Assembly: GCA_002724395.1 (NCBI GenBank)
Contig: PBOR01000035.1
Coordinates: 1 to 64,000, forward strand
DNA length: 64,000 bases
Reading direction: 5' to 3'
From: Rhodospirillaceae bacterium
GTDB lineage: Bacteria; Pseudomonadota; Alphaproteobacteria; UBA8366
The notes below the pieces were generated by a model, which had not been told where the DNA came from, did not search any database, and was given only the letters and a program-made list of their open reading frames with translations. Below, piece after piece: positions 45,120 through 61,987 of this stretch. How positions within the stretch are numbered: the stretch's first letter is position 1; each line of letters opens with the position of its first letter. The translations under genes were made by a program, and so were the position numbers.

Positions 45120-46355
45120 TTAACTAGTAGCGGACTTTAGGATGTCGCGCATGGATATTTTGTCGTTGGCGAGGTTGCCGATATTCACGGAGGTGTTCGC
45201 ATCCATAAGGCGCCGAGCGATCCGCATTTCCCGAGCGCGATTGACCGCAATTACCGCCTCAATTTTATCATGAGCGAATTGGAAGGCTATAAAATTACGA
45301 CCGGGAAGATCGCCACGAATAATCAGATCGTTCCAGCCGGCGGGTTGTCCCGCAATCTGGAGATTTACGTCGTATTGGTCGGACCACACCCACGGGGTTT
45401 CTGCATAGACCGTGTTGCCACCGCACATATTATTTGCTGCAGCTACTGTTTGGTTCTGCGCATTCTGCCAGGTCTCAAGCCGGACATGTCTATTTAGCAA
45501 TGGATTGAAGTGGTTGGTATTATCACCGGCCGCAAATATGTTTATATCCGACGTGCGGGCAAATTCATCGACTATAATGCCATTGTCAATATCTAGGCAC
45601 GCCGATTTCGCGAGTATGGTTTCAGGAATGATACCTACACCTACCAAGACTAGGTCGGCGGGGATGCTTCTTCCTGACATTGCTTCAACACTAGCCACGT
45701 TATTTGTTCCGCTAAAAGCTTTGAGGCCATCATTGAGGTGCACTGTGACATTATTTTCCTCATGGAGATCCAAAAACACGGCAGCGATGTCAGGAGGAAG
45801 TGCACGTCCCATCAATTGAGGGGCTGCTTCAAGGACGGTTACATTAACACCGCACGATCGCGCGCTAGCTGCAACTTCTAAACCGATGAAGCCACCGCCT
45901 ATTACAACAAGTTTACTGCCTTTTCTTAGCGATTTCTTGAGCGAGCGGCTGTCATCAATAGTTCTTAAATAGTGAATACCGTTGAGATTAGCGCCAGGAA
46001 CATCGACTTTCCGAACGGTGCCACCGGTTGTTAGTAGTAATTTATCGTACGGGATATCACTGCCGTCCGACATTGAAATTCTTTGATGTGAAGCCTCTAT
46101 GCTAAGCGCCGTAACTCCGAGTTTTAGAATGACGTTATTCTCTTCGTAGTATGCTTCATCACGTATCAAACGAAAGCTAACTCCGTTATCCAACTGAAGT
46201 AACTCTTTGGAGAGAGGGGGGCGCTCATAGGGGGGGTGGGGTTCATTTCCAATGAGCGTTATTGGACCTTTATGACCAGCCCTTCGAAGAGCTTGCACAG
46301 CTACGCCGCCTGCGTGTCCTGCACCGATGATGACGAAGTAATCATTAGCCGCCAT
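45120..46355 (-). CDS. FAD-dependent ferredoxin reductase
   Basis: 411 residues of the BphA4/CamA/rubredoxin-reductase type that moves electrons from NAD(P)H to a ferredoxin. First Rossmann motif VIIGAGHAGGVAVQALRRAG at residues 8-27 (as IGAGHAGG), then PPYERPPLSKELL near 41 with the FAD-contact sequence. Second NAD-binding motif VVIGGGFIGLEVAASA near 152 and FAAGDNTNHFN near 281. C-terminal dimer/reductase domain with WSDQYDVNLQIAG near 324. It is 13 nt after the Rieske ferredoxin gene, its probable electron acceptor. The terminal oxygenase they would feed is not in the window. Confidence 0.92.
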   Translation of the reverse strand: MAANDYFVIIGAGHAGGVAVQALRRAGHKGPITLIGNEPHPPYERPPLSKELLQLDNGVSFRLIRDEAYYEENNVILKLGVTALSIEASHQRISMSDGSDIPYDKLLLTTGGTVRKVDVPGANLNGIHYLRTIDDSRSLKKSLRKGSKLVVIGGGFIGLEVAASARSCGVNVTVLEAAPQLMGRALPPDIAAVFLDLHEENNVTVHLNDGLKAFSGTNNVASVEAMSGRSIPADLVLVGVGIIPETILAKSACLDIDNGIIVDEFARTSDINIFAAGDNTNHFNPLLNRHVRLETWQNAQNQTVAAANNMCGGNTVYAETPWVWSDQYDVNLQIAGQPAGWNDLIIRGDLPGRNFIAFQFAHDKIEAVIAVNRAREMRIARRLMDANTSVNIGNLANDKISMRDILKSATS

Positions 46356-46368
46356 AGTGCAGAAATTC

Positions 46369-46677
46369 CTATACTTTAATGAAAACGGTGCCGTCTTCGA
46401 CTTTCGTTTGGTAGATCTTCAGGTCTTGCTCTACAGGTGGGCAGAGTGCTTTGCCGGTTTTGATGTTGAAACGACCATCATGCAGTGGGCACTCGATTAT
46501 ATCACCCTCTTGGAAACCGTCAGCCATAGATGCAAACGCATGAGTGCAAATATTAGCGGTAGCAAATATCTCACTATCTACATTGTAAAGTGCAATATCG
46601 TCATCGCCGATTTGTACTTTTATGGGTTCATCCGGCTTAATATCGGCTGCGGATGCTACCTGGTGCCACTCACTCAC
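46369..46677 (-). CDS. Rieske [2Fe-2S] ferredoxin
   Basis: 102 residues from GTG at 46675-46677, supported by an AGGAG eight bases upstream; the longer frame has a non-coding-like head. The Rieske cluster ligands are C44-H46 in NICTHAF and C63-H66 in ECPLHDG, followed by FNIKTGKALCPPVEQDLKIY, typical of small soluble NirD/BphA3-like ferredoxins. Soluble, cytoplasmic. It should shuttle electrons from the next gene product (ferredoxin reductase, 13 nt downstream) to an oxygenase or another acceptor. The preceding ThDP enzyme gene is 73 nt upstream. Confidence 0.93.
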   Translation of the reverse strand: MSEWHQVASAADIKPDEPIKVQIGDDDIALYNVDSEIFATANICTHAFASMADGFQEGDIIECPLHDGRFNIKTGKALCPPVEQDLKIYQTKVEDGTVFIKV

Positions 46678-46750
46678 GATCCAATCTCCTCGAAAAGAAT
46701 GTCGACAAACCACATATAAGGTCTTTTAGGTTTATAAGGTTGTCGTTGGG

Positions 46751-48574
46751 TTAGTTCAACGCTGTGCGAATATCTACTAAGGCAACTCCGCCGGCTTCCA
46801 CATCTGCGACCGCTTTCTTTAGGTTCGCTGCAATTTCATTAGGATTATCGATCGGGCCATAGCCGGTTGCGCCGAAAGACCGAGCCGTACTGGCGAAATC
46901 TATATCGGGTCCAATCATTTTTTGGCCAATCCAGGCATTTTCCGGTGGTCGTCCGCGATACTTGGCAAGCTTGGATTGATGTTCCTCGTCATTGCCGAAC
47001 GAATTATTGTTATGGAGTACAATTAAGACTGGGATTTTATAATGGGCCGCGCTCCAAAGCGCTGCGGGGTTCATGCTAAAATCACCGTCGCCCATAATAC
47101 AGACAGTAAAGCGACCCATATCGCGTGCTGCTAAAGCAGAACCAACTACGCCACCGGGCCCATAGCCAACGCCTCCACCGGCGTTATTGCCAAGATATTG
47201 ATTGCAACCCTCAAATTTCCAAATACCTTCGTACCAGCTGCGGTAATTTCGGTTAGCGACAACATAGGGTTTGTCCTTAACCGCCTCCCACACTTCATGG
47301 ATAAGGCGAGGAACCGAAATGGGGTCATTATCAAAATTCTTTTCCAAAACATCCTTTTGTATCTTCCGAAGAGCGTCGTGACGTTTTGCAATAGCTTTAG
47401 CATTCGCTTGCGCCTTCTTCTGCCATTCAGGATTTTTCTCGGCTCGGTTCTTCAGCTCAACAAGAAGCTGTTTCATCCCGTAAAGTGGGTCGGCGAATAG
47501 GTGCAGGTCAACCGGCGGAAGGGAACCGCCAATTGCTGCCCAATTATCGATGGAAAGGTCGTTAAGTGACAGATCAATAACTATTTTTGGGTTATCGCCT
47601 TCGACGATATAACCGTAACCGCCACCACGTGCTTTGCCATATTCACCTGTCAGATCCGCCACATCTTGATTATCGATAATCAGGATTAAGTCCGCCTCGC
47701 CGCGAATTTTGCTTTCTTTCGTGGGACCGAAGCCACCGGTGAGATTTTGTGGGTGGTCGGTCGGCATGCAGACCACGTCTTTACCCTCTTGATAAGCGGC
47801 GCCGGTGAGCTCAACTAGTTCCTGAAGATACTTGGTTGTGCCAGCGATACGGCCAAATCGACCGCCAATAATAAGCGGTAATTTGGCTTCCATAATCATA
47901 TTGGCCGCCGCTTCAATGGTCTCCTGCGTGGCAGCGACTGGGGGGGAAATTTTGTAACGAGGTAGAGACATGTCAGGGATGGTAACTGCCTCATCGAGTT
48001 CTTCCTCTTGGACAGTTGCATCAATAGATACGTAAGTAATACCTTTGGGCGCATTACCCGCAATACGGTACGCTTTTGCTAGTGAATTCAATGTGCCTTG
48101 CTGAGTTGGAGGCTCATCCGTCCATTTTGTATAGGGGCGCATTAGTTCAGATTGATTATTAGCTGCATGTAGCCAATCGATTAGACGCCGCTCTGCTGGG
48201 TCTAAAGGGCCGGAGCCACCAATGACCAGCATTGGCGCTCGATCAGCAAACGCATTCCAAAATGACATCATCGCATGCTGAAGACCAACCAAATTATGCA
48301 GTATTACGCAGGCAGGTTTGTTGGTCATTTTTGCATAACCATGGGCCATTGAAACGGCTATCTCCTCATGTGCACAAAGAATCATTTCCGGCTTGTGGTT
48401 GCGACCATAGTTGACCAATGAATCATGAAGCCCGCGAAAGGTCGAGCCTGGCGTGAGCGTAACATAGTCGAATCCCATTTCACGGATCATATCGACCATG
48501 ATATCCGACCCGTATTTAGGGTCTTCTTGGTTGGCGGGGAGATTTACTGGTACCTCGGTTGTAGTGTCCTTCAT
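46751..48574 (-). CDS. Thiamine diphosphate-dependent enzyme, acetolactate-synthase-like
   Basis: 607 residues with the three-domain layout of the acetolactate synthase/benzoylformate decarboxylase superfamily. Catalytic Glu is in CAHEEIAVSMAHGYAK near residue 68; the central domain has LIIGGRFGRIAG near 234; the ThDP-binding motif is GDGDFSMNPAALWSAAHYKIPVLIVLHNNNSFGN near 496 (GDG to NN). The N-terminus has an extra 20 residues before GSDIMVDMIREMG. It is not obviously sulfopyruvate decarboxylase or IlvB, since no small regulatory subunit is beside it. The ATG overlaps the stop of a small upstream ORF. Decarboxylation or carboligation of a 2-oxo acid is inferred. Confidence 0.86.
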   Translation of the reverse strand: MKDTTTEVPVNLPANQEDPKYGSDIMVDMIREMGFDYVTLTPGSTFRGLHDSLVNYGRNHKPEMILCAHEEIAVSMAHGYAKMTNKPACVILHNLVGLQHAMMSFWNAFADRAPMLVIGGSGPLDPAERRLIDWLHAANNQSELMRPYTKWTDEPPTQQGTLNSLAKAYRIAGNAPKGITYVSIDATVQEEELDEAVTIPDMSLPRYKISPPVAATQETIEAAANMIMEAKLPLIIGGRFGRIAGTTKYLQELVELTGAAYQEGKDVVCMPTDHPQNLTGGFGPTKESKIRGEADLILIIDNQDVADLTGEYGKARGGGYGYIVEGDNPKIVIDLSLNDLSIDNWAAIGGSLPPVDLHLFADPLYGMKQLLVELKNRAEKNPEWQKKAQANAKAIAKRHDALRKIQKDVLEKNFDNDPISVPRLIHEVWEAVKDKPYVVANRNYRSWYEGIWKFEGCNQYLGNNAGGGVGYGPGGVVGSALAARDMGRFTVCIMGDGDFSMNPAALWSAAHYKIPVLIVLHNNNSFGNDEEHQSKLAKYRGRPPENAWIGQKMIGPDIDFASTARSFGATGYGPIDNPNEIAANLKKAVADVEAGGVALVDIRTALN

Positions 48575-48921: not shown

Positions 48922-50562
48922 TTATACGTTTTTATTGCGTGCCTCAGGCCGAATAGGTGTTTCTGGTCGAATATCCTTTTTTATTTTTTGTTTTGAGATT
49001 TCACCGTTCCTCAAATAATGCCCATCTGTCGCCCGTTTTGCTGCTTCATCCCATTCATCAGACCAGTCACCAAGGGTATATCCGTGCCACGGGCTTTCGG
49101 GTTTCAGTGGCGGTAAACCTAATTTTTCCCAGAGGTCTTTGGCGTGTTCCATATACTCTTTTCTCGGTAGGGCGAGCGGGGGCATGGGTCCCTTCATTGT
49201 GGCATCAATGAGGAGGGTTGAGTCATGCTCAATGGACCGCTTAATACGGGGGCCTTGGCCATGGCCGCGATGTTCCAAAATATGGCAATCTAGGATCGGA
49301 TTGCAACGATAGGACATCGCCCAAAAAACCGCGTCTCCGTTATCCGGGTCAATATCGTCATTAATGGCAATAATAAATTTACCCACATTACTTTGTAGCG
49401 CAGTGCAGCCATAGAGCGCGCGCCAAACTTCGGTAGATGGAGCGTCGCGCTCCATTTGCACGAATATTACTTTGCGGAGGTTTGTTAGTGGCTCGTGAAG
49501 TGAAACCTTGATCACCCCTTGTATACCCAAGTTATCGCGTAAATGGGTCAGGTAGAGCGGCTCATACGCAAGGCGTTTGATGACCGAAGATTCACTCGGT
49601 GTGACTTGGCTGATTATGGATGGAATTACCGCTTTTTTGCGCCGCGTGATAGCGGTGACCTGGAATATCATATTGTAGGACTCCAGAGCCACGTAGCCAG
49701 CGGATTCGCCGAATGGGGCCTCTGGTTCGACATGCTCCGTTGAGATCAACCCCTCAATTACTAGCTCAGATTCGGCAGGCACATCTAAATCGATCGTTTT
49801 AGCTTTGGTAACGTTAATGGGTTCACCTACAAGACCGCCAGCGACATCGATTTCGTCATAGCCCATTTTGAGCTTTTGCGGTGACATGTAGTTGAATGCT
49901 GGTGGACAGCCGATAACGATGGCGCACGGCATAGGTTCTCCGCGTTCTTTCCATTTTTTCCAATGTATATATCCCTCTGCACCGCCAGGTCGAATAACCA
50001 TTCGGACGGCCATACGGTTGGAGGCTTTCAAGCCAGCACGATAGGTGCCGGAATTTTGGATGCCCGTCTCCGGGTCCTTAGTTATTACGTTGGTTGCGGT
50101 AAGGTAAGGGGCAGAATCGAAACCTGGAGTAGAGATAGGAATTGGCAGAGCGTCTAAGCCCTTGCCTTCGCCAATTAGGTCCTCACCGGTCTCAATCACT
50201 TCATGGCAAGGTGCGTTATCCACATGGTTGGGTTTAATTGGATTAGAGATCGCGTGGTTCCAAGTCTCTCCAATTTTATTGGGCTCGCAGCCAATGCCGA
50301 TTTTATAGATTTCTGGATTGGTTGCGAGCGCGCCAATTACTACTGGGATATCATATTTTCGGCCTAAGCTGTCCGTAATATTGTTAAATAGGAACGCCTT
50401 ACGATCGGCTTCGTTGATACCGCCGCGGAATTGCCACCGCACCAGGGGGTGCATCTCGGTATCTTTATTAATTGGCTCATCGATTTCGACCAAGAGCCCT
50501 GCCTTTCGGAGGGCTTCGATATGATCGTGGAGGTCGGGATATCCTCTTTTTGGTGGTGGCAT
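48922..50562 (-). CDS. UbiD-type decarboxylase, copy 1
   Basis: 546 residues from ATG at 50560-50562 (AAGGA upstream). UbiD enzymes reversibly decarboxylate aromatic or alpha,beta-unsaturated acids using prenylated FMN. The catalytic pair E-x4-E is in EPEAPFGESAGY near residue 279; the Arg is in QNSGTYRAG near 170, and Asn of the same segment plus Glu in YDEIDVAGG are expected metal/cofactor ligands. The His that in Fdc1/UbiD lies after a V-I-x-P-type segment is replaced by Gly in RPGGAEGY. It is the last of four tandem homologues, 19 nt after copy 2. Substrate unknown. Confidence 0.9.
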   Translation of the reverse strand: MPPPKRGYPDLHDHIEALRKAGLLVEIDEPINKDTEMHPLVRWQFRGGINEADRKAFLFNNITDSLGRKYDIPVVIGALATNPEIYKIGIGCEPNKIGETWNHAISNPIKPNHVDNAPCHEVIETGEDLIGEGKGLDALPIPISTPGFDSAPYLTATNVITKDPETGIQNSGTYRAGLKASNRMAVRMVIRPGGAEGYIHWKKWKERGEPMPCAIVIGCPPAFNYMSPQKLKMGYDEIDVAGGLVGEPINVTKAKTIDLDVPAESELVIEGLISTEHVEPEAPFGESAGYVALESYNMIFQVTAITRRKKAVIPSIISQVTPSESSVIKRLAYEPLYLTHLRDNLGIQGVIKVSLHEPLTNLRKVIFVQMERDAPSTEVWRALYGCTALQSNVGKFIIAINDDIDPDNGDAVFWAMSYRCNPILDCHILEHRGHGQGPRIKRSIEHDSTLLIDATMKGPMPPLALPRKEYMEHAKDLWEKLGLPPLKPESPWHGYTLGDWSDEWDEAAKRATDGHYLRNGEISKQKIKKDIRPETPIRPEARNKNV

Positions 50563-50581: not shown

Positions 50582-52216
50582 TTATCTGTCGTCCGCCACC
50601 TGATCAGTAGGTGTTTCAGGAATGAGTCCTTTGCGAACACGCTGTGCGGTCAGCGAGCCATTCTCCGCATAAAGCCCTTTTGCAGCACGCTCGGCCATCT
50701 TATCCCAGTACTCAGTCCAATTACCAAGTTCATAGCCGTGCCAGGGGGTTTCAGGGCGTAGGGTTGGGAGCCCAAGCTCCTCCCAAATCTTGGCTGCATT
50801 TTCCATATATTTTTTTTTGGGTAAGGCAAGTGGCGGCATTACAGATTCCATTGTCGCGTTAATCAGTAATGTGGAGTCTGGATCAGGGCGTGTATCGGCA
50901 TCAGGGCCGTGGCCCGGAGCTCGGAAGGGAAGAATTGCAGAATCTTCTGCAGGATTGGAACGGTAAGCCATAGCCCAGAAGATGGAGTCTGGATTATCCG
51001 GATCGATATCATCGTTAACTGCAATGACAAACTTTGCACAGTCTGCCCGATAATTAGCCGCACCATAAAGGGCTCGCCAAATTTCGGTCTTGGCTGCGCC
51101 CTGATCCATGATCACTATAATAAAGCGTAACACCGACGTGAGTGGCTCATGCATTACAAGCCCTTTAATACCTTGGATGCCGAGATTGTCTCGAAGATGG
51201 CTCAGGAATACCGATTGCTGTGCTGTACGTCGGATAACCGAAGATTCGCTTGGTGTTACCTGGCTGATAATAGATGGTAGTACGGCTTTCGTTTTGCGGG
51301 TGATGGCTGTGACCTCAAAAGCCATATTATAGGCTTCAAGCGCAACATAGCCGTGGCTTTCGCCGAAGGGTCCTTCCGGTTCGAGATGATCAGTGGCAAT
51401 TAATCCCTCAATAACGATCTCGGCTTCCGCAGGCACCATCAGATCAACGGTTTGGGCTTTTACTACATTGATGGGTCCGCCTGCGAGGCCACCTGCAATG
51501 GCAAGTTCATCCATTCCATGTTGAAATTTAGCGGGGGAACAATAATTCACCAGAGGAGGGCAACCGACCACAATAGCGCAGGGCATTTTTTCCTCCCGTT
51601 CCTTGTATTTTAGCCAGTGCTGATAGCCATCCGCTCCGCCAATACGCGAGGACATGCGTACTCCGAGGCGGTGAGAATCTTTTAGTCCAGCGCGATATGT
51701 ACCCATATTTTGAGTGCCGTCGTCCGGATCTCTAGTGATACAATTGGTGTTGGTGAAATAAGGGGCGGAGTCGAACCCGGGAGTTGATATGGGGACGGGA
51801 AAGGCGTCTAGTCCGTTGCCGTCGCCCAACAGTTCTTTACCCGTAATAACTATTTCTTGGCACGGGGCTTCTTGCACTTCTGCTGGCGGAATAGGGTTGG
51901 CAACCGCATCTTGCCAGGCCTTATTGATCTTATCGAGCGGTTGACCCATGCCGACGCCATAAATTTCCGGCGTGGCGGCAAGTGAGCCTACCGCAACCGG
52001 CATATCATATGCGCGACCTTTACTGTCGATGATATTGGTAAATAAAAAAGCCTTACGGTCTTTAACGGGAATTCCCCCCCTGAACTGCCATCGCACTAAT
52101 GGATGTAATTCGGTATCTTTATTGACCGGCTCGTCGATGCGCTGCAATAGGCCCGCTTTTTCGAGCGCCTGTAGATGCTCCGGTAGGTCGGCATAGGTAC
52201 GTTTAGGACTGGGCAT
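50582..52216 (-). CDS. UbiD-type decarboxylase, copy 2
   Basis: 544 residues. Similar to copies 1 and 3 across its length but distinct throughout. Catalytic set: QNMGTYRAGLKDSHRLGVR near residue 168 (Asn and Arg as in QNMGTYR), MDELAIAGG near 230 and EPEGPFGESHGYVALE near 279 (E-x4-E). In place of the metal His there is SSRIGGADGYQHW. Starts with ATG five bases after the stop of a 29-codon ORF and has no clear ribosome site of its own, so it may be translated by coupling. Its exact acid substrate is unknown; the family needs prFMN from UbiX, encoded at 61406-61987. Confidence 0.9.
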   Translation of the reverse strand: MPSPKRTYADLPEHLQALEKAGLLQRIDEPVNKDTELHPLVRWQFRGGIPVKDRKAFLFTNIIDSKGRAYDMPVAVGSLAATPEIYGVGMGQPLDKINKAWQDAVANPIPPAEVQEAPCQEIVITGKELLGDGNGLDAFPVPISTPGFDSAPYFTNTNCITRDPDDGTQNMGTYRAGLKDSHRLGVRMSSRIGGADGYQHWLKYKEREEKMPCAIVVGCPPLVNYCSPAKFQHGMDELAIAGGLAGGPINVVKAQTVDLMVPAEAEIVIEGLIATDHLEPEGPFGESHGYVALEAYNMAFEVTAITRKTKAVLPSIISQVTPSESSVIRRTAQQSVFLSHLRDNLGIQGIKGLVMHEPLTSVLRFIIVIMDQGAAKTEIWRALYGAANYRADCAKFVIAVNDDIDPDNPDSIFWAMAYRSNPAEDSAILPFRAPGHGPDADTRPDPDSTLLINATMESVMPPLALPKKKYMENAAKIWEELGLPTLRPETPWHGYELGNWTEYWDKMAERAAKGLYAENGSLTAQRVRKGLIPETPTDQVADDR

Positions 52217-52221
52217 GGTGA

Positions 52222-52311
52222 CTAATTATTCCTGCTGACTAGCCAACGGACAAAAATACCAACACCGGCACCGATGATGATGAGGACGACGATTTCTAAA
52301 TTCTGATACAA
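52222..52311 (-). CDS. 29-residue single-span membrane peptide
   Basis: A TTG-initiated frame of 29 codons with a strong GGAGG site nine bases upstream (52321-52325, inside the end of UbiD copy 3). The product has one hydrophobic span, LEIVVLIIIGAGVGIFVRWL, flanked by an N-terminal YQN and a C-terminal SRNN, so it reads as a one-pass membrane peptide. It starts 4 nt after the UbiD copy 3 stop and ends 5 nt before the UbiD copy 2 ATG, occupying almost the whole spacer. No family is recognised. It may act as a leader that couples translation of copy 2, or as a small membrane subunit. Confidence 0.6.
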   Translation of the reverse strand: MYQNLEIVVLIIIGAGVGIFVRWLVSRNN

Positions 52312-52315
52312 TCTC

Positions 52316-53953
52316 TTATTCCTCCGTCGGTTTGCCAGGTGTCATCTCGATGTCCGTAACGAGGGTTTCCGGTTTGACACCTTGGACAAGGCGTTTTTCG
52401 GTGAGCTCTCCGTTCGTTTTGTAATCGCCCGCGGCTGCACGTTTTGCCATTTCGTCCCAATATGAATTCCAATCGCCTAATTCGTAGCCATGCCAAGGTG
52501 TTTCTGGTTTTAGCTCGGGTAGGCCCAACCGTTCCCAAAGTGCTTTGGCGTTTTCCATATATTCGCGCTTGGGCAACGCAACCGGCGGCATGTCTGCCTT
52601 GATTGTAGCATTGATCAACATGGTAGCGTCATTTCCATGTCCTTTGGGACCGTGCCCACCGCTGCGGTGCGGTAAAACGTGAACATCAAGAGCTGGATTC
52701 GAGCGGTAGGTTATGGACCATAAAATGGCATCTCCGTTCAGTGGATCAATGTCTTCACTCACGGCTATGACATATTTACCGCAGTCAGCGCGAAAATTCG
52801 AAATCCCGTAGAGCGCGCGCCATACTTCGGTGGGCGCAGCCTCGCGGTCCATGACGAGAAAGGTAACCTTACGAAGGTTTGTGAGTGGCTCATGAAGAGC
52901 GATACTCTTGATACCTTGGATACCCAGATTATCTCGTAAATGCGCCATAAACATGGGCTCGTAAGCAACCCGCTTAATAACTGACGATTCGCTTGGTGTG
53001 ACTTGACTAATAATGGAGGGAATAACCGGTTTTTCTTTCATACAAATCGCTGTAATTTCCATCTGCATGTTGAAACCTTCAAGCGCGATATGGCCATGGC
53101 TTTCGCCGAATGGGCCTTCGGGTTCAAGGTACTCTGTATCAACCAAACCCTCGATCACTAATTCCGATTGTGAAGGCACAAGTAGATCACTGGTTTTGCA
53201 TTTCACGATTTGGATGGGTTCGCCAGCTAGGCCGCCCGCTACATCGATTTCATCAATAGTACGGGGTAGTTTTTGCGGGCCCATAAACGCAACGTGCGGT
53301 GGACATCCTATAACGAATGCTACCGGCATTTTTTCGCCGCGCTTCTGATACTTCACCCAATGGGCATAGCCGCCTGCACCGCCGGTCCGGCTCGACATCC
53401 GGACCCCCAGTCTATTGGAAGATTTTAGGCCAGCTCTATACGTGCCGATATTTTGAATGCCGGTTTCTGGATCTTTTGTTACGCAGTTGGTCGCGGTGAA
53501 GTAGGGTGCGGCATCGTAGCCAGGCGTAGATATAGGGATTGGCAAGGTATCTAGGCCCTTACCTTCGCCGATCAATTCGTTGCCTGTAATAACTACTTCG
53601 TGACAAGGTGCATCGGATACTTCAAGGGGTTTGATGGGGTTTGAGATTGCTTGTTCCCAATGGGAGCCGATCTTATCCATCGGTACATTCATGCCGATGC
53701 GGTAGATTTCCGGCGTGGTGGCCAGAGCGCCAACTACAACTGGGTAATCGTATTTGCGGCCCCTACTATCCGTGATGTTGGTAAACATCCATGCCTTGCG
53801 ATTGTATTCTGGAATGCCCCCTCGAAATTGCCATCGCACCAACGGGTGCATTTCCGTATCTTTGTTTATTGCGCGGTCGACGGTTCGGAGTAGGCCAGAT
53901 TTTTCCAGCTCGGCTAGGTGTTCCTGATAGTCTCTATATCCGCGTTTAGCCAC
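52316..53953 (-). CDS. UbiD-type decarboxylase, copy 3
   Basis: 545 residues. Catalytic set: QNIGTYRAG near residue 167, IDEIDVAGG near 229, and EPEGPFGESHGHIALE near 278 with the E-x4-E pair. The metal-His position reads SSRTGGAGGYAHW, as in copies 1 and 2. A typical C-terminal end, PETPWHGYELGDWNSYWDEM (shared wording in all four copies as PWHGYELGDW), is a local family feature. It lies 21 nt after copy 4 and is followed by the tiny membrane-peptide ORF. Substrate unknown. Confidence 0.9.
   Translation of the reverse strand: MAKRGYRDYQEHLAELEKSGLLRTVDRAINKDTEMHPLVRWQFRGGIPEYNRKAWMFTNITDSRGRKYDYPVVVGALATTPEIYRIGMNVPMDKIGSHWEQAISNPIKPLEVSDAPCHEVVITGNELIGEGKGLDTLPIPISTPGYDAAPYFTATNCVTKDPETGIQNIGTYRAGLKSSNRLGVRMSSRTGGAGGYAHWVKYQKRGEKMPVAFVIGCPPHVAFMGPQKLPRTIDEIDVAGGLAGEPIQIVKCKTSDLLVPSQSELVIEGLVDTEYLEPEGPFGESHGHIALEGFNMQMEITAICMKEKPVIPSIISQVTPSESSVIKRVAYEPMFMAHLRDNLGIQGIKSIALHEPLTNLRKVTFLVMDREAAPTEVWRALYGISNFRADCGKYVIAVSEDIDPLNGDAILWSITYRSNPALDVHVLPHRSGGHGPKGHGNDATMLINATIKADMPPVALPKREYMENAKALWERLGLPELKPETPWHGYELGDWNSYWDEMAKRAAAGDYKTNGELTEKRLVQGVKPETLVTDIEMTPGKPTEE
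52321..52325 (-). promoter_or_regulatory. Ribosome-binding site for the 29-codon ORF
   Basis: GGAGG on the minus strand, nine bases before the TTG at 52309-52311. It is one of the best sites in the UbiD cluster although no longer gene uses it, which is the main reason to think the tiny ORF is translated. Confidence 0.55.
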
Positions 53954-53974: not shown

Positions 53975-55669
53975 TTACTTGTTAGATTCCGGAATGCCGT
54001 CCCAAGTCACTTCTTCGTTAGGTTCTTCCTCTCCGACGCCTGGGTTACCGATATCGAGGGTACGGACTTCGGTGTTCATTTCTACATCGTTGCGGCGATA
54101 GCCGGCGATGGTTTTACCGGTTTCCCAATAGTCGCTCCGAACAGCACGGCGTGCCATAATGTCGAGGTCCGCATTCCATTCGCCAAGGTCGTAGCCATAC
54201 CAGGGCCGCTCCGGTTTGATTTCCGGCAAGCCTAATTCGTCCCATATCTTTGCCGCATTTTCCATATACTCGCGCTTTGGTAGGGCAACAGGAGGTAAAT
54301 CCTCCTTAAGCGTGGCATCTACCAAGACTGCAGAATCTTCGGAATCGAGCACACTGCGGGGGCCGTGTCCTTCATGCTTGTGGGGCAGCATATGAGTGTC
54401 GCGATGAGGTTTGCAGCGATACGACATTGCCCAGAAAATCGCATTGGCATCGTCAGGATCTATGTCTTCGTTAATAGCGACCACCCACTTACCTTCTGCC
54501 ATGCGGTGGGCAGCTGTCGCGTAAAGTGCACGCCAGACTTCGGTGCTAGCTGCATTACGGTCCATAGTGATTAGAATGAGCTTATGGAGCGACGTTAAGG
54601 GTTCGTGCATAGATACGCCGACGAAGCCTTGAATGCCTACCGTATCGCGTAAATGTGCGAGCAGTTTAGCTTCATAAGCAGGTCGTTTTATGGTCGCCGA
54701 TTCACTTGGTGTCACTTGGCTCACCCAAGATGTAATGACCGCATCTTTACGCCGGGTAATCGCGGTCACATCCATATAACCATTATATTCCTGTAAATTA
54801 ACGTGGCCGTGGGATTCGCCAAATGGGGCTTCAGGCTCTAGCCATTCGGTACTGATATATCCTTCAACAACGACTTCAGCTTCCGCCGGTACCAACATAT
54901 CAAGAGTTTTTGCTTTCACCATATTCAGTGGTGCATTTACTAGGCCGCCTGAGACGTGGTGTTCATCAAGCCCATGAGGCAATTTCTGTACTGATGTAAA
55001 GGAGACGATCGGCGGGCAGCCAAGCACTATACAACAAGGCATGGGTTCGCCACGCTCTTTCCATTCAAGCCAATGGAGGTAACCGCCAGTGTGATGTTCG
55101 ATTGATGGATTAAAGCCAATACGATCCGGTGCTTTAATTTGGGCACGGTAGTTGCCATTGTTATAGGACCCGTCTACCGGACTTTGAGTGATAAAGTGAG
55201 ACGATGACATGTAAGGTGCGTTGTCCCAGCCAGGCGTCGAAATTGGAACAGGAATGGCGTCTAAGCCATTTCCATTGAGAAGATCTTTGCCTTCGAAAAC
55301 CAGATCGTGGCATGGTGCGTCGTTAGTATCCATGATATTCGGCGCGATCGGGTTATTCATCGCTTTGATCCAAGTATCACCAATTTCTTCGATTTCACAG
55401 CCCATTCCTGTCTTGTAAATCTCGCGGCTACCAGCGAGCCCGCAAACCAAAACAGGGATATCAAATTTACGGCCTTTACTGTCAACAACGTTAGTAAACA
55501 GCCATGCTTTGCGGTTTTTCTCTTGAACGCCACCACGGAATTGCCACCGTACCAGTGGATGCATTTCCGTATCTTTATTGATTTCGCGGTCAACCTCGAT
55601 CAGCAAATCAGCTTGACGTAGAGCTTCAATATGATCATGCAGATCGGAATAATTGCGTTTGGCGCTCAT
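53975..55669 (-). CDS. UbiD-type decarboxylase, copy 4 (most divergent, first in operon)
   Basis: 564 residues, the longest copy, with an extra acidic tail (GIPESNK end). Has AGGGGAGG five bases before the ATG. Catalytic set: YNNGNYRAQ near residue 171, LDEHHVSGG near 234 and EPEAPFGESHGHVNLQ near 282. Unlike the other three it has EHHTGGYLHW where they have a Gly-rich stretch, so it may keep the metal-binding His. Its wording around the active site (QIKAPDRIGFNPS) also differs, hinting at another substrate. It is the first gene of the minus-strand run, divergent from the molybdenum hydroxylase genes with a 175-bp spacer. Confidence 0.9.
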   Translation of the reverse strand: MSAKRNYSDLHDHIEALRQADLLIEVDREINKDTEMHPLVRWQFRGGVQEKNRKAWLFTNVVDSKGRKFDIPVLVCGLAGSREIYKTGMGCEIEEIGDTWIKAMNNPIAPNIMDTNDAPCHDLVFEGKDLLNGNGLDAIPVPISTPGWDNAPYMSSSHFITQSPVDGSYNNGNYRAQIKAPDRIGFNPSIEHHTGGYLHWLEWKERGEPMPCCIVLGCPPIVSFTSVQKLPHGLDEHHVSGGLVNAPLNMVKAKTLDMLVPAEAEVVVEGYISTEWLEPEAPFGESHGHVNLQEYNGYMDVTAITRRKDAVITSWVSQVTPSESATIKRPAYEAKLLAHLRDTVGIQGFVGVSMHEPLTSLHKLILITMDRNAASTEVWRALYATAAHRMAEGKWVVAINEDIDPDDANAIFWAMSYRCKPHRDTHMLPHKHEGHGPRSVLDSEDSAVLVDATLKEDLPPVALPKREYMENAAKIWDELGLPEIKPERPWYGYDLGEWNADLDIMARRAVRSDYWETGKTIAGYRRNDVEMNTEVRTLDIGNPGVGEEEPNEEVTWDGIPESNK

Positions 55670-61405: not shown

Positions 61406-61987
61406 CTAACTTGCTTCCTGTTCTTTCCAGCGATGAACAATATCCGTATCGATGCCAAATTGATCAAGCGCACGGCCGACTGTTTGATTTACAATATCGT
61501 TGATGGTTTGTGGCCGGTGATAAAAGGCGGGCATTGGAGGAATGATCATGCAGCCATACTGCGCTGCTTTGACCATTAGCTCTAAATGACCTTGATGTAA
61601 CGGCGTTTCACGAACCATGAGGCCGACTTTACGTCGTTCTTTCAAGCAAACATCCGCGGCTCGCGAGATTAAGTTATCGCTGAAACAATTGACCACGCCG
61701 GTTAATGTCTTGATTGAACAAGGGGCGATAACCATGCCTTCTGTTTTGTAGGAGCCCGATGAAATTGATGCTCCTATATCTTTAAAGCTATGGACTTCGT
61801 CTGCAAGCGAGCGGACATGCTCTAGAGAAAAATCGGTTTCAGCCGAAATGGTTTGTGCGGCTGAGGGTGACATAATCAAATGGCTTTCTATGTCTGGGAG
61901 ATCGCGCAACACTTCCAAGATGCGAATGCCATATACCGGACCCGAGGCCCCTGATATACCTACAATTAATCTTTTAGTAGTGCCCAA
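61406..61987 (-). CDS. ubiX: Flavin prenyltransferase UbiX
   Basis: 193 residues, the normal length. Joins dimethylallyl phosphate to FMN to make prenyl-FMN, the cofactor of UbiD decarboxylases. The N-terminal LIVGISGASGPVYGIRILE is at residues 7-25 (as ISGASGPVYG). SSGSYKTEGMVIAPCSIKTL near 76 (as EGMVIAPCSIKT) and RKVGLMVRETPLHQGHLELM near 118 (as LMVRETPLHQGHL) are the flavin and phosphate-binding segments, and IIPPMPAFYHRP near 147 the C-terminal one. It lies about 6 kb from the UbiD tandem, separated by the Mo hydroxylase genes, and can supply their cofactor. Confidence 0.95.
   Translation of the reverse strand: MGTTKRLIVGISGASGPVYGIRILEVLRDLPDIESHLIMSPSAAQTISAETDFSLEHVRSLADEVHSFKDIGASISSGSYKTEGMVIAPCSIKTLTGVVNCFSDNLISRAADVCLKERRKVGLMVRETPLHQGHLELMVKAAQYGCMIIPPMPAFYHRPQTINDIVNQTVGRALDQFGIDTDIVHRWKEQEAS

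Follow-up and report, generated by a model that had tools for sequence, protein, structure and literature searches.

Between the second and third of four consecutive UbiD-family genes (A, B, C and D, all on the minus strand) in the window, i.e. the whole 64,000-nucleotide stretch of DNA from a marine alphaproteobacterium that was analyzed, lies a 29-codon minus-strand frame with a TTG start and a TAG stop (52311-52222; product MYQNLEIVVLIIIGAGVGIFVRWLVSRNN). Its sequence features suggest that it is a real, genus-restricted gene for a single-span membrane micropeptide that may also couple UbiD B to UbiD C, and we put the probability of this combined reading at roughly one in two. A 29-residue inner-membrane micropeptide would then be one of the translation products of the four-UbiD operon. 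Ribosomes reaching the end of UbiD B would start the peptide by means of a GGAGG site in the tail of B, across a 4-nt gap, and those arriving at the peptide's TAG, 5 nt from the UbiD C ATG, would reinitiate there, the frame relaying ribosomes over a spacer that post-termination ribosomes otherwise would not cross. We infer the translation, the membrane insertion and the coupling alike.

UbiD domains were identified by Pfam in all four genes of the array. UbiD A (564 aa, 53975-55669; PF01977, E 7.9e-44) comes first, followed by UbiD B (545 aa, 52316-53953; PF01977, E 6.5e-50, and PF20696), the upstream neighbor of the small frame; UbiD C (544 aa, 50582-52216; PF01977, E 5.1e-51), its downstream neighbor; and UbiD D (546 aa from the ATG at 50562, 48922-50562; PF01977, E 1.5e-50). 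Each of the four proteins shows the motifs NxGxYR and E-P-E-[GA]-P-F-G-E, the latter near residues 277-286; together they contain the E-R-E pattern that is the catalytic triad of UbiD enzymes. The junctions measure 21 nt between A and B, 99 nt between B and C and 19 nt between C and D; the first and last of these each have their own Shine-Dalgarno (SD) site and no relay frame. The B-C distance is a multiple of three, and UbiD B and UbiD C share a reading frame (52217-52315, minus strand). The same window carries a gene for a UbiX-type flavoprotein (61460-61975, minus strand; PF02441, E 1.1e-40), the likely supplier of the prFMN cofactor. Downstream of the array, at 45120-48574 on the minus strand, are genes for a thiamine-pyrophosphate enzyme, a Rieske ferredoxin and a ferredoxin reductase, which probably form an aromatic-acid degradation cluster. 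A search of the array against Rfam gave only a sub-threshold chance match to the fluoride riboswitch, inside UbiD C.

The spacer between UbiD B and UbiD C runs from 52315 to 52217 on the minus strand, and the TTG frame occupies 90 of its 99 nt, beginning TTG TAT CAG and ending AAT AAT TAG; it is separated from the TAA of UbiD B by 4 nt (GAGA) and from the ATG of UbiD C by 5 nt (TCACC). A GGAGG Shine-Dalgarno-like site (52321-52325, minus strand) is embedded in the closing codons of UbiD B and stands 9 nt 5' of the TTG. Its calculated energy is -9.5 kcal/mol; for the first-ATG starts of long ORFs the median is -3.9 and the strongest 10% begin at -8.5, so that the site outscores about 90% of the reference starts in the genome. 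The product has a single hydrophobic span (best 17-residue Kyte-Doolittle mean 2.75) that includes a GAGVG stretch, with E6 on its N-terminal side and R22 and R27 on its C-terminal side, and by the positive-inside rule these two arginines would place the C-terminus inside. It contains no cysteine, which excludes a zinc ribbon. The nearly filled spacer, the strong GGAGG site, the single span and the 4- and 5-base gaps had all been described in the initial annotation and are borne out here, whereas its statement that UbiD C, the second of the flanking copies, lacks a clear ribosome site is not: an AGGA lies 13 nt 5' of the UbiD C ATG, within the 3' end of the peptide frame. At -4.3 kcal/mol it is close to the above median of first-ATG starts in the genome (-3.9), and a quarter of random sites score -3.8 or better; the UbiD C site is weak to average and poorly spaced, not missing.

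Could the spacer be non-coding and the frame an accident? Some 1.2 Mb from this genome served as the reference. That a frame fills a gap says little by itself, because 12 of the 77 same-strand gaps of 70-140 nt are filled to at least 85% by some frame, and 1.3% of random 99-nt intergenic pieces hold an ORF of at least 85 nt inside them. An accidental origin is also in keeping with the restriction of the frame to one genus and with a congener too little diverged for conservation to be informative. Against it stands the combination of codon use, SD site and hydrophobicity. At 0.072 per codon, the frame's codon score is practically the mean of same-length segments of real genes (0.074) as opposed to that of off-frame segments (-0.131); off-frame segments attain it in 0.6% of cases and antisense segments in 2.2%. 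A score based on synonymous choice only also falls on the coding side, though it is reached by 4.5% of off-frame and 8.8% of antisense segments (about 4.5-9% of non-coding sequence), and among segments in non-coding frames that are both open and hydrophobic, 5-7% reach the frame's codon score. Only about 1% of the ORFs of this length in random intergenic pieces are equally hydrophobic, and such an ORF with comparable hydrophobicity was found in 0.015% of draws. Among the 12 filled gaps the TTG frame is the most hydrophobic. Inspection by eye found no evident SD site in most of the others, and an SD-like site together with a membrane-type sequence only in the TTG frame and in one lipoprotein-like frame. 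The latter (L180, 15272-15384, minus strand; 39 codons, beginning VKQIFLVMLLTILVSSCGVKNDPKSPGN) occupies the space between two genes and may resemble LptM/YifL. The spacer's predicted RNA fold is no better than that of shuffles (z 0.15); no duplicate of the spacer was found elsewhere in the roughly 1.2 Mb of the same genome, and the viral contigs contain no exact copy of its core. An accidental frame is unlikely, and a real, translated gene, as the initial annotation had proposed, appears about 75-80% likely; codon use, SD strength and the nearly full spacer point that way, and the frame survives in the congener. Counting against it are the TTG start and the occurrence of the frame in two genomes only, which are about 2-4% diverged. 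When 43 genomes from the order and 385 from the class were searched for homologs of the peptide, only the two congeners turned up, the remaining matches (E 0.02-0.7) being frames or portions of longer proteins; Pfam and NCBIfam contain no family for it.

The second of these genomes (L008, PAXN01000010.1, the G001 contig) is the only other member of the genus that was compared. It keeps the order A-B-peptide-C-D, and its frame is intact, with the start kept and a single difference in the 99 nt of the spacer, which produces a conservative V-to-I replacement. The GGAGG has become GAAGG, which still scores -6.2 kcal/mol as AAGGA. The four UbiD genes differ by 1.6-2.7% between the two genomes, and the adjoining non-coding DNA at 21 of 562 positions. 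Conservation of the frame, its start and its hydrophobic core had been suggested as a check, and frameshifts or stops in close relatives as grounds for rejection. There are none in this single congener, at a divergence (about 2-4%) where a frame would survive neutrally with a probability of 76% and at most one change would be expected in 99 nt with P ~0.12. At so small a divergence this conservation neither supports nor refutes a function; the sole relative is too close to decide.

With regard to coupling, reinitiation has been found to drop steeply with distance in both E. coli and Haloferax, with E. coli losing 80-100% at 38 nt (PMC10666635); on that basis, ribosomes that leave UbiD B could not get across 99 nt without help. 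Coupled genes overlap or have less than about 20 nt from stop to start (a distance limit taken from PMC10666635), and the peptide gaps of 4 and 5 nt fall within this range. With such gaps and a strong SD site within B, a relay is the simplest use of the frame. This invites the view that the frame is a translational relay and nothing else, its peptide a disposable by-product whose hydrophobicity is irrelevant; the two short gaps, a spacer far in excess of the reinitiation range and the bad spacing of the UbiD C site would all be accounted for. A relay has no need of a hydrophobic sequence, however, and leaves unexplained a property shared by so few random ORFs of this length, which is a reason to think that the peptide matters in its own right; moreover, 20 nt of spacer carrying an SD site would suffice, as at the other two junctions. 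We therefore regard a relay with a meaningless product as unlikely. The proposal that translation of the peptide couples that of UbiD C, made in the initial annotation, survives in part: the geometry is sound, but the site of UbiD C is average in its own right, so that coupling may not be needed, and the 21- and 19-nt junctions do with SD sites of their own.

The other role suggested there for the peptide, that of a membrane anchor or regulator of the decarboxylases, did not fare as well. It may be formulated as an anchor or allosteric small subunit of UbiD, with a role like that of VdcD, though membrane-embedded. The position of the frame between two UbiD genes makes this possible, and UbiD enzymes are known to use small accessory proteins, VdcD, PpcGamma and LpdD, that are unrelated to one another (PMC8379154). 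Beyond position and hydrophobicity nothing in our results speaks for it, and several speak against. Apart from lacking the cysteines of a zinc ribbon, the peptide has almost no soluble part with which to bind an enzyme. No small hydrophobic frame starting within 60 nt was found past 137 UbiD 3' ends (those with downstream sequence, not all of them independent loci) except that of the congener, and therefore there is no general partnership of UbiD with such a peptide. A search of the collected literature for UbiD with a small membrane protein found none. Relatives of the UbiD genes occur on plasmids in 11 records, all but two at less than 60% identity; the region in one of them, S. meliloti pA, carries no annotation.

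The sister genus likewise has no peptide in its array, which consists of A, a single fused protein of 686-687 aa, and D. In the fusion, residues 1-471 of UbiD B are joined in frame to residues 322-540 of UbiD C, giving a protein with two C-terminal domains from which the prFMN-binding part of C has been lost. It was found complete in L126 (5364-7424, minus strand), L127 (6143-8206, plus strand) and L021 (5639-7702, plus strand), with its 3' part in L014 (614-1969, plus strand); L021 and L127 seem to be one and the same contig, and the fusion is present in full in at least two genomes and in part in one. It is apparently stable there. With B and C fused, there is no B-C spacer, and these bacteria do without the peptide. 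An anchor or small subunit serving UbiD enzymes is thus quite improbable on the evidence at hand. A special case would be a newly arisen, genus-specific membrane subunit that tethers a mixed complex of UbiD B and UbiD C to the inner membrane, with the fusion in the sister genus as an alternative solution that keeps B and C together; we consider this slightly more doubtful still.

The frame might instead be a remnant of a longer membrane-protein gene that was dropped into the array, for example the initial helix of a crcB fluoride channel. The best phmmer matches of the peptide in a PDB search were to the N-termini of CrcB proteins (E 2-5, not significant), and against a CrcB profile built from seven family members, which do not include the genus's own L200 and L201 CrcB proteins, it scored 9.0 bits, above 99.9% of shuffles and 99.8% of genomic membrane segments. 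But CrcB was picked post hoc among thousands of membrane families, the DNA matches to the genome's own crcB extend over no more than 8-12 nt, and the frame has its own SD site, start and stop and no decayed flanks. With no Pfam match either, we rejected the similarity as a suggestive pattern that is not significant, and of all the possibilities discussed a CrcB remnant seems the most remote.

The preferred reading, then, is of a micropeptide gene that may also serve as a relay; the frame is probably a small gene of a known kind, confined to one genus, and its part in coupling is plausible. Should the frame be translated, it would be a further membrane micropeptide missing from the annotation of a catabolic operon, and a compact case in nature of a mini-gene that may ferry ribosomes over a distance at which reinitiation would fail. 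Service as a UbiD accessory, if true, would be of wider interest, since the UbiD accessory proteins known so far are mutually unrelated.

The closest counterparts are the small membrane proteins of less than 50 aa detected by Ribo-seq in Sinorhizobium meliloti (PMC10117765), which likewise are encoded by very short frames in the operons of an alphaproteobacterium, have a single hydrophobic span and are readily missed by gene callers. The present peptide differs from them in being limited to one genus and in its TTG start, such starts being rare in the S. meliloti set. In its 4-5 nt from stop to start on both sides it resembles the gene pairs coupled through termination-reinitiation (PMC10666635, PMC6728339), though these mostly overlap by 1 or 4 nt, while here two short positive gaps stand in series around a mini-gene. 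Like VdcD, PpcGamma and LpdD, it is a small gene beside UbiD genes; VdcD, however, is a zinc-ribbon allosteric activator with four cysteines (PMC8379154), whereas this peptide is a bare membrane helix with no cysteine and no homologs. With the first transmembrane helix of CrcB/Fluc it shares a helix rich in G, with R and L-V following at comparable positions, but those proteins have about 125 aa as against 29, their other helices have no equivalent in it, and the similarity is not significant.
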